A stretch of DNA of 64,000 nucleotides from Seramator thermalis (lineage in GTDB: Bacteria; Bacteroidota; Bacteroidia; Bacteroidales; Dysgonomonadaceae): positions 186,001-250,000 of the forward strand of contig NZ_RXHS01000001.1 in NCBI RefSeq assembly GCF_004138125.1. The letters run 5' to 3'. This document shows, piece by piece, positions 23,646-56,748 of the stretch (position 1 is its first letter; each line of letters starts with the position of its first letter). The notes beneath the pieces were generated by a model, which did not search any database, was not told where the DNA came from, and saw only the letters and a program-made list of their open reading frames with translations. Both the position numbers and the translations under genes were made by a program.

Positions 23646-24238
23646 CCATAAAAATTGAGGGTTTCATTAACTTCGTTGCCTTCGGATGCGTGAATTGAAG
23701 AAGCCACAACTTTGTTTATATTTGAAGATTATTTATTATTGAGTCCACTTTAAAAAGTCATTTATTGAAAAAATAACATTTGATTATCAGTTTATTACAA
23801 CGTAAAATTCTTGGATTTTGAACATTTTAAAGTAGACTCCTTCTTTATTTCTTTATTTCTTTATTTCCTACTTCTTCACTTCTTTCTTAAATTCTCAATT
23901 ATCCATTATCCATTACATCATAACACCTCCCTGCCTTCGGCAGTACCCCTCTTATCTTAAGAGGGGAGTAATTATAGGATTATACCATCTGAACTGTCCC
24001 CTTAAGATAAGGGGACAAGTGCTGCCGCCAGGCAGCACAGGGGTTATGATATTTCTTCACTTCCAACTTCTTCATTTCTTCTTAATTACCATCGCCGTAC
24101 TTGCGTCATACTTGGTTCGAATCAACACCAAAGGCACATTTTTCTGTAAACCTATTTCGGAACACGATACAACTTTTTGTAAAGGTCGTTGTTTAAAATC
24201 AACAGAATTTCATTCACAACAACAATAGGAAAGAAAAT
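23646..24238. other. Intergenic region with pyrimidine-rich tracts and a MITE-like repeat
   Basis: No coding frame is convincing. The stretch contains two similar low-complexity pyrimidine tracts on the plus strand (about 23845-23895 and 24050-24090, rich in ttctttattt and acttcttca) flanking the inverted repeat at 23917-24050. The last 60 bases lead into zwf with an aggaaag sequence before its ATG. Confidence 0.6.
23917..24050. repeat. 134-bp imperfect inverted repeat, MITE-like
   Basis: The ends atcataacacct (23917-23928) and aggggttatgat (24039-24050) are inverted copies. Further in, CTGCC...GGCAG pieces and two small palindromes (cccctcttatcttaagagggg and ccccttaagataagggg) continue the symmetry, so the whole can fold into one long hairpin. 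It carries no gene. Size and structure suggest a non-autonomous mobile repeat or a dispersed intergenic repeat. Confidence 0.6.
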
Positions 24239-39053: not shown

Positions 39054-39187
39054 GCCAAGAAACTTTTCGTTGTAGGAATACTGCGCAAAGAAACCCAACT
39101 TTAATTACGAATTGCTTACGATTTTATGAAGAATTTGTTAACAATTTTTTCGGCATTGGAAGCCGCAGTAAAACGAAATAATTTGAT

Positions 39188-55248: not shown

Positions 55249-55515
55249 TTAAGCTGCTTGTTTTATTTTTCCCTCTCTTTCAATTCGTAACAGCTCTGCT
55301 CCTATCTTGTGAAGGTTATAGGCGCAGACGCATATAACCACATATCGTTTGGAGTGGGCATAACCCTTGTCGGGACACCTGTCTGATCCCCTATGTTCCG
55401 GTTCGTTGATGTTCGACTCAATCGCACTGTGTCGATGGCGTGTTTTTCTAAACGCCCTTTCGCTCTCTTGTTCCTGCTCTTTGTGATTGAGCTCTCCCTT
55501 TTTTGGCATAACCAA
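55249..55515 (-). pseudogene. ISNCY-type transposase remnant (C-terminal fragment)
   Basis: 88 codons resembling the end of ISNCY/IS1182-like transposases: RHRHSAIESNINEPEHRG, DRCPDKGYAHSKRYV, CAYNLHKIGAELLRIERE. The upstream catalytic part is absent, and stop codons precede it, so it is a fragment. No end repeats were found. Confidence 0.7.
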
Positions 55516-55652
55516 ATGTTGGAATTTATTTAAAAAAATGTTTGGAGGAGTACGGATTTTTTCTCACAAAGTGTTTTTGTTCAAATTCCCCACCTCTTTA
55601 CCTCATTCATCTTCCCCGTCATCTCCCACTTATCTCTATCTTTCCTACGCTA

Positions 55653-55729
55653 TAGCTCCGACATAGCTCCGAGGCAACTCCATGTCAACTCCAAGTTAAC
55701 TCCATAGCAACTATCAAGCAACTATTACT
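55653..55729 (+). repeat. Seven 11-bp direct repeats upstream of the DUF6266 gene
   Basis: Units: TAGCTCCGACA, TAGCTCCGAGG, CAACTCCATGT, CAACTCCAAGT, TAACTCCATAG, CAACTATCAAG, CAACTATTACT. The shared core is (c/t)AACTCCA, with drift at both ends. The period is about one DNA turn. It lies just upstream of the likely promoter of the following gene. The rest of 55516-55652 is pyrimidine-rich with no gene. Confidence 0.75.
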
Positions 55730-55781
55730 TTTCAAAAAGTTAATGAAATTAAATAAATAAAGATAATGCTTTCATCGGCAC

Positions 55782-55789
55782 TATCTTTG
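55782..55789 (+). promoter_or_regulatory. Candidate -7 box for the DUF6266 gene
   Basis: TATCTTTG is a good match to TAnnTTTG, 37 bases before the ATG at 55827. A -33 TTTG is not visible; the repeats at 55653-55729 lie 53 bases farther upstream and could bind an activator. Confidence 0.45.
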
Positions 55790-55826
55790 TCTTATAGGTA
55801 ACCAATCGATCAAATTGAAAAAAATA

Positions 55827-56456
55827 ATGGCTAAATTCGAATCAAGTACTTTTGGCAAAATGTCCGGACGATTAGGCAAAGTAGTTGCGGTAAAACGCAA
55901 CGGGAAAAACTTCCTGCGCGAATATACCGTTCCGGCTAATCCACAAACGCTCAAACAACAGGCAAATCGTATGAAGTTCAGGTTTGTCAATCGCAGCCTG
56001 ACACCACTGCGCCAAGTCATCAAACGAGGCTATCTCGACACTCAGGCTTTCCCGAAAGTTTGCAGTAAAGTACTGAAAACGGCCGTCGAAGGTGAATATC
56101 CCGATTTCGCCATCGATTTTTCGAAGCTGCAACCGGCGGATGGTACTTTGCCGCCGGTGGAAATGGTTACGGCTGAAACCCGAAAAAGCACATCCGAAGT
56201 TATCGTCAAATGGCAAATCGCACCTGAAGCGCAATTACAAGGGAATGCAGACGACAAAATCTCGCTGGTGTTTTTTGACGAAGCAACAGGGTCATGTTTT
56301 TTTCACCAAAATATCGGTTCTCGCTCCGACCAAATGGTTACCGTATTGTTGCCCGAAACAAACAAAGAAAATCCTCTCCACTGTTGGGCTTATTTATCTA
56401 CAAGCAACGGCAACATGAATTCTTCGAGTGTATATATAGGGCAATTGAAATGGTAA
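55827..56456 (+). CDS. DUF6266-family protein, unknown function
   Basis: 209-aa protein recognised by its N-terminal pattern (MAKFESSTFGKMSGRLGKVV, then KNFLREYTVPANPQTLKQQ and RMKFRFVNRSLTPLR), characteristic of DUF6266, a family widespread in Bacteroidota without known function. No signal peptide; the C-terminal half looks beta-rich (SEVIVKWQIAPE, DDKISLVFFDEATGSC). ATG 55827 is preferred to the TTG at 55815. It stands alone, with 11-bp repeats on both sides that share a core, and next to a transposase remnant. Confidence 0.75.
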   Translation: MAKFESSTFGKMSGRLGKVVAVKRNGKNFLREYTVPANPQTLKQQANRMKFRFVNRSLTPLRQVIKRGYLDTQAFPKVCSKVLKTAVEGEYPDFAIDFSKLQPADGTLPPVEMVTAETRKSTSEVIVKWQIAPEAQLQGNADDKISLVFFDEATGSCFFHQNIGSRSDQMVTVLLPETNKENPLHCWAYLSTSNGNMNSSSVYIGQLKW

Positions 56457-56467
56457 AACCAAATTCG

Positions 56468-56500
56468 TACCAAGTCCATACCAACTCCATACCAAGTCCA
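56468..56500 (+). repeat. Three 11-bp direct repeats downstream of the DUF6266 gene
   Basis: TACCAAGTCCA, TACCAACTCCA, TACCAAGTCCA in tandem, 11 bases after the stop codon. The core CAA(C/G)TCCA is the same as in the upstream array. Confidence 0.75.
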
Positions 56501-56748
56501 AGTAGAATTTCGTGTATTCCGGCTAAAGATATCAGATGATGCTGTCAGGAAGATCAGCACCTGCGACTGCGAGACACTTTCACGGTGAATGCATTCGAAT
56601 TGGTATTTAACGATGGTATAACAGACAAGCACATCGGCAAAACCTCTATCATTTCGAGTTGAAATAAACTGCCTTTCCCCATTTTTATACGAAATTGGTG
56701 AGGAATGATGACCGCTCAATAATGGTTTTTTATTTGTTTTGAATAATT

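Follow-up and report, generated by a model that had tools for sequence, protein, structure and literature searches.

A divergent DUF6266 gene in Seramator thermalis and its upstream array of 11-bp repeats, a possible REPtron-like gene-repeat pair

The window, a 64,000-nucleotide stretch of the Seramator thermalis genome (C11:186001-250000 of an assembly of 2.98 Mb in 39 contigs), contains a 209-aa DUF6266 gene (55827..56456, + strand; ATG 55827 being the best placement of the start) with arrays of 11-bp repeats on both sides. The upstream array (55652..55729, +), referred to here as family A, consists of seven units, is C-rich on the sense strand of the gene and ends ~98 bp before the ATG; the downstream array (56468..56500, +) consists of three units and matches the pattern ACCAA(G/C)TCC. 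A two-unit pattern allowing up to 3 mismatches matches 8 times in the window versus a mean of 1.31 in shuffled sequence, with at least 8 matches in 0 of 100 shuffles, so that the original prediction of seven upstream and three downstream units is borne out by both the sequence and the shuffle test. The core CAA(C/G)TCCA proposed as common to both sides holds only in part, since exact CAACTCCA occurs in just two of the seven upstream units, the others being TAGCTCCGA-type (two), TAACTCCA (one) and CAACTAT-type (two), and since the downstream array, TACCAA[G/C]TCCA, is a distinct sub-family whose motif is also dispersed and found upstream of other DUF6266 genes. The upstream array is preceded by degenerate leader units at 55603..55651 (+), in the same 11-bp register as judged by eye, and the end of this leader (CTACGC before TATAGCTCCGA) is common to several dispersed copies. 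Between array and gene lies TATCTTTG (55782..55789, +), a candidate -7 element by the Bacteroidota consensus (TAnnTTTG), with no visible -33 partner. To the left, an ISNCY-like transposase remnant (55249..55515, - strand) is cut off beside the edge of the repeat-bearing unit; as predicted, it is a transposase fragment, most like the ISNCY C-terminus (profile positions 371-443 of 444), and its score falls under the curated cut-off, as expected for a fragment.

Membership of the window protein in DUF6266, likewise predicted, is confirmed by a PF19781 profile score of 64.1 bits against a curated cut-off of 23.4. The protein belongs to a divergent subfamily, called type 2 here and assigned from low PF19781 profile scores, and comprises a basic N-terminal part and an Fn3-like C-terminal domain; in every row of three alignments the net charge is +6 to +15 in the N-terminal part, and in the C-terminal part it is 0 to -14. 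The structure model (pLDDT 83.4, pTM 0.74) consists of an N-terminal beta hairpin (at lower confidence), a helical hairpin and a seven-strand sandwich, and the N-terminal part modelled alone gives a poor model (pLDDT 57). All nine PDB matches at E of 0.001 or less, and most of the 50 listed, are domains of the fibronectin-III type or else receptors and enzymes that contain one, and the matches to viral structures are weaker, many of them likewise fibronectin-III-type. No catalytic domain or nuclease fold is seen in the model or the fold comparisons, nor is there any sign of an HUH tyrosine transposase, Pfam returning DUF6266 only and the model showing only the helical hairpin and the Fn3-like sandwich. 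DUF6266 is a family of no known function, and no paper on DUF6266 or PF19781 was found in the literature searched. The dN/dS values of 0.09 between species and 0.18 between two copies in the S. thermalis genome point to purifying selection on the gene.

The S. thermalis genome contains four DUF6266 genes, including that of the window. The gene at C1:89531 lies within a second copy of the entire unit of leader, upstream array, DUF6266 and downstream array (55519..56508, +, the right edge set by eye), which at C1:89143-90176 is 91-92% identical and retains both arrays. The gene on C34 encodes a protein that is 44% identical and also has an upstream array, and the fourth gene (C11:163215) is canonical and has no array that passes the threshold up to a distance of 1.5 kb. 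The family A motif is found at 15 distinct places, a count that leaves out six isolated two-mismatch matches, the places of the downstream-type motif and one related array; three of these places are at DUF6266 genes and 12 are without the gene. The left-end motif of the family occurs at 13 places (none for the reversed control), and a looser pattern gives 58 matches versus 8 in the control. A second family of 11-bp arrays, family B (units TATTTGCGTCG; e.g., C22:164339-164397, with TTCGAAT often beside the units), occupies 31 distinct places (up to 2 mismatches; reversed control 0), none of them near DUF6266 and none with a recognised partner gene. A weak copy of family B lies in the window at 24098-24114.

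These data bear on the proposal in the original prediction that the two arrays are the edges of a mobile cassette and that gene and repeats form a unit. The duplication of the whole unit at C1 agrees with such a cassette, but the shared unit extends ~130 bp beyond the upstream array, downstream arrays were found only at these two near-identical copies (and at 0 of 20 type-2 genes of relatives), most family A arrays, at 12 places, lie apart from any DUF6266 gene, an outcome anticipated in the original prediction as evidence against it, and the neighbouring IS elements differ in type; a mobile cassette delimited by the arrays is therefore most improbable. The association of gene and repeats survives, as indicated by the 91-92% copy of array, gene and array and by the upstream arrays of type-2 genes described below. 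Transfer of the two unit copies by a shared transposase was also considered and rejected, the IS genes beside them being ISNCY-like and IS1182-like (both under the curated cut-offs). In a comparison of the edges of the two copies, by eye only, no inverted repeats or target duplications were seen, and empty sites lacking the unit were looked for and not found in the sequences compared.

The association of arrays with type-2 genes extends to other genomes. Twenty of the 32 low-scoring, near-complete DUF6266 rows outside S. thermalis were fetched as stretches of 2.2-3.6 kb, among which 12 have a period-11 array and two more a period-22 array, in every case upstream of the gene. Scoring was performed on 24 type-2 genes, namely these 20 and six added genes (the three of S. 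thermalis, L315, L321 and L322), minus L277 and L280, whose upstream letters are missing; the partial genes L313, L326 and L327 were left out (L327, from Paludibacter, has no array by eye). With gene starts fixed and an array taken as a period-11 stretch of at least 21 of 30 bases within 260 bp upstream, 17 of the 24 type-2 genes carry an array, and in the control a period-11 stretch lies within 250 bp upstream of 9 of 1436 mechanical ORFs (at least 100 aa). Of the other periods from 6 to 30, period 22 is passed by 13 of the 24 genes, whether in addition to 11 or in its place, period 8 by one gene and the remainder by none. The type-2 genes are not independent of each other; when they are grouped by eye into 14 clades from the alignment, 12 clades include at least one array-bearing gene, and the array motifs differ between DUF6266 clades. 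Amongst canonical genes, an upstream array is present in 6 of 26 usable genes (from 32 loci), one of the six (L329) being a low-complexity stretch that passes at many periods. DUF6266 genes without repeats, anticipated as evidence against a link, thus exist (20 of 26 canonical and 7 of 24 type-2 genes at this threshold), but the majority of the type-2 subfamily does carry the array. Pairs of ACCAAGTCC are found ~71-83 bp before the DUF6266 match in five further genomes (G041, G042, G050, G053 and G100), and in a rumen member of the Bacteroidales (L328) this motif precedes a canonical gene. Type-2 DUF6266 genes and upstream 11-bp arrays are a conserved pairing, in which, for most of the subfamily, the array keeps to one region upstream of the gene and to one strand. 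From clade to clade the letters of the unit vary, whereas its period and strand do not. Common descent alone could account for a joint change of motif and protein clade.

The window gene is a PF19781 member by profile like the canonical genes, and differs from them in its surroundings. In four of six canonical loci viewed, DUF6266 lies before holin-/endolysin-like genes (one of the other two loci ends at a contig edge), and one canonical gene is on a viral contig of 4.3 kb (L329) together with a holin and a tyrosine integrase. Holin-/endolysin-like genes adjoin the canonical gene at L048, L060, L064, L071 and L329, and L048 also has a DUF3987/PriCT_2 primase gene. These loci look like a satellite or relic of a phage. 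No holin-/endolysin-like genes are seen beside the three type-2 genes of S. thermalis, and the neighbours of these genes and of those at L262, L264, L272, L278 and L281 contain no recognised phage-type cassette, as judged without a profile search. A phage origin was rejected, one match being obtained in each of two viral scans. In three genomes (G055 C22, G056 C3 and G078 C280) a type-2 gene and a canonical one are divergently oriented at a distance of 1.8-2.2 kb; in two of them (G056 and G078) the interval contains a gene of 285-292 codons.

The dispersal of the gene's own motif is not restricted to S. thermalis, being positive in all three genomes tested (S. thermalis, G056 and G079). The motif of the G056 gene has 39 matches at 13 places (up to 3 mismatches) and that of the G079 gene 24 matches at 12 places (up to 2 mismatches), with no matches for the reversed control in either genome. 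Some array families have no DUF6266 partner (e.g., the ATTAGAACNAN family of G079, which has no adjoining DUF6266 when positions are compared, and the ACCAAGTCC arrays of G021, where no DUF6266 match was found), and in G001 none of the 10 ACCAAGTCC matches is on the contig of its DUF6266; together with the canonical genes, most of which have no array, these cases argue against strict dependence. The ATTAGAACNAN family is found at 25 loci on G079 C1 (L198-L258), with an ordered leader, and the strand of its arrays comes in runs along the chromosome. The dispersed arrays are mostly intergenic and lineage-specific. Array positions common between genera were sought and rejected, the proteins around the 25 G079 loci and 35 S. 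thermalis loci sharing a single gene pair (HydG/HydF), at which the arrays of the two genomes occupy different gaps. The remaining protein matches have 28-57% identity.

At the level of whole sequence samples, a shift of 11 in 364 kb of the S. thermalis genome, including the window, yields 7 noncoding stretches, compared with 3 for the next best period (7 to 30) and none at period 11 in block-shuffled sequence. A further weak noncoding period-11 stretch of unrelated sequence lies at 39105-39147 of the window. Some other genomes of the bacterial family have 11-bp arrays with other motifs, and samples of G053, G050 and G007 have no period-11 stretches. Genomes with type-2 genes have 15 stretches in 966 kb, among them the array of the window itself, a stretch preceding a canonical DUF6266 of G060 and one of low complexity. 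This is about three times the density of genomes without such genes, where 883 kb contains 5, one being located at a DUF6266 fragment of G100. In a fresh sample of ten genomes with type-2 genes the density is low, with 3 stretches in 382 kb.

Comparison with a genome of the same genus (G092, 83% complete) indicates how the arrays change. Each of the five left-end motifs detected in G092 has a counterpart place in S. thermalis, and array positions within the genus are orthologous, with whole units gained or lost. When seven orthologous array blocks are scored against 60 bp on each side, the array clearly exceeds both flanks in three pairs, i.e., valS (0.95; flanks 0.77 and 0.67), C34 DUF6266 (0.99; 0.80 and 0.83) and C38:17324 (0.86; 0.57 and 0.48). 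The other blocks score 1.00 at ftsK (1.00 and 0.93), 0.71 at C39 (0.72 and 0.70), 0.54 at HydF (0.97 and 0.52) and 0.72 at C38:47285 (0.98 and 1.00), so that of the seven pairs three look constrained, three show unit turnover and one is uninformative. The difference at C38:47285 is a clean gain or loss of exactly one 11-bp unit between flanks that are 96-100% identical. The C34 upstream array is identical at 72 of 73 positions between the species, versus a synonymous divergence of 0.44; the DUF6266 frame is open through this array in both species (L041 3996-4818; L260), and since the array can be read in the frame of the gene it may be coding, and its conservation partly so. Family B, with 44 matches in S. 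thermalis, has one in G092, a difference that would fit either recent spread or loss.

Such turnover raises the possibility that the arrays are neutral minisatellite-bearing MITE-like elements, with DUF6266 as cargo or as a relic of the parent element. A comparable case is the BrickBuilt MITE of Porphyromonas gingivalis, where, in the available part of PMC4596501, a minisatellite of variable unit number is described within a dispersed intergenic element of a Bacteroidales member; its unit is 23 nt, unlike the arrays here, it has IS5-like inverted repeats, and that part mentions no partner gene. The intergenic, lineage-specific dispersal, the excess of family B and the single-unit difference at C38:47285 are consistent with MITE-like elements, as is the finding that ten of the 25 ATTAGAAC arrays of G079 (counted by eye) lie inside one longer conserved element. 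However, arrays of unrelated motif keep to one region and strand upstream of type-2 DUF6266 across many clades, which would not be expected if the gene were cargo, some arrays exceed their flanks in conservation, and inverted-repeat ends or target duplications are not established, making neutral elements an unlikely explanation. The longer G079 element is mostly located 3' of a gene and also holds a terminator-like palindrome (by eye).

The strand of the arrays suggests the main rival explanation. All 22 gene-proximal arrays (17 type-2, 5 canonical) have C>G on the sense strand, and the in-phase YC runs are longer on this strand in 17 of the 22, longer on the antisense strand in 2 and equal in 3. 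The upstream array might accordingly be a rut-type leader, transcribed into C-rich, G-poor RNA with YC dimers every 11 nt, at which Rho would stop transcription before the gene. Known rut sites are described as C>G bubbles in which YC dimers recur every 9-13 bases, and they can be located at gene beginnings (PMC9160355); the gene-proximal arrays share both the composition and the regular spacing. In such a leader the sequence would be free to drift while spacing and C>G are kept. On the other hand, the arrays are near-identical 11-bp tandem units with dispersed copies of mixed orientation, unlike Rho utilisation sites, and the dispersal would be left unexplained. Arrays at DUF6266 all have the same strand whereas those at dispersed sites have either, and the dispersed arrays are not consistently downstream of a gene on their own strand (18 of 34 have an upstream neighbour on that strand, p 0.86; in the three C-rich families only, 12 of 18, p 0.24). 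Moreover, C>G does not hold for the units of family B, those of ATTAGAAC contain a single YC on each strand, the spacers of the C34 array are conserved as well, and the candidate promoter in the window lies between array and gene. A rut-type leader is regarded as rather unlikely.

Two generalisations about the arrays were rejected. An oriented terminator role of dispersed arrays as a general rule is not borne out by the 18 of 34 (p 0.86). The ATTAGAAC family of G079 does have its upstream neighbour on the array's strand in 18 of 25 cases (p 0.043), a bias that arises because of the ten copies of the longer element, 9 of which lie 3' of a gene and carry the excess (the other 15 arrays give 9), so that a terminator role is not general but may hold for that element. 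A terminal hairpin is not general either, a terminal palindrome being found at p<=0.05 in 8 of 16 arrays versus 0 of 15 control segments, and not in the clade of the window, whose own array gives p 0.88. Inverted units directly after the arrays, forming an end hairpin by eye, are seen at G079 C1:1267891-1267963 and 1301350-1301444 and at the dispersed arrays L297-L309.

The preferred reading, to which a probability of roughly 0.45 is assigned, is that the locus is a REPtron-like gene-repeat pair with a non-transposase protein, consisting of type-2 DUF6266 and its own upstream 11-bp array. REPtrons combine an HUH transposase gene (TnpAREP/RAYT) with REP repeats (PMC8266576, PMC8049555, PMC3733652), and the repeats are said to have co-evolved with the protein (PMC8266576). 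The likeness lies in one gene, a cognate short repeat beside it and copies scattered in the genome (here in three of three genomes tested). The differences are that DUF6266 comprises a basic part and an Fn3-like domain with no HUH fold seen, and that its units are 11-bp direct repeats, whereas REP repeats are short palindromes, which in the main group carry a GTAG tag. No description of such 11-bp arrays was found among the literature matches listed, by title or in the available parts of PMC3733652 and PMC5771137.

In a REPtron-like pair of this type, the basic N-terminal part of DUF6266 would bind the 11-bp units, which at this spacing would lie near one face of the helix, and the protein may regulate its own gene from the upstream array. 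The dispersed arrays would be non-autonomous copies recognised by the same DUF6266 protein, and their copying to new places may use host or IS enzymes. It is conceivable, though doubtful at present, that the full scheme applies, with a private 11-bp helical-turn array read by a non-transposase DNA-binding DUF6266 that controls its own gene and holds and homogenises the dispersed arrays, clades and motifs changing together, which would constitute a new gene-repeat system in Bacteroidota. For DUF6266, so far a family without a known function, these comparisons provide a concrete and testable partner in the form of an array that changes its letters yet keeps period and strand. Should the arrays be rut-like, nature would have supplied an exceptionally regular test of the way Rho reads spacing; should DUF6266 read them, the family would offer a gene-repeat pair that does not involve a transposase, together with a natural collection of proteins and their matching motifs.
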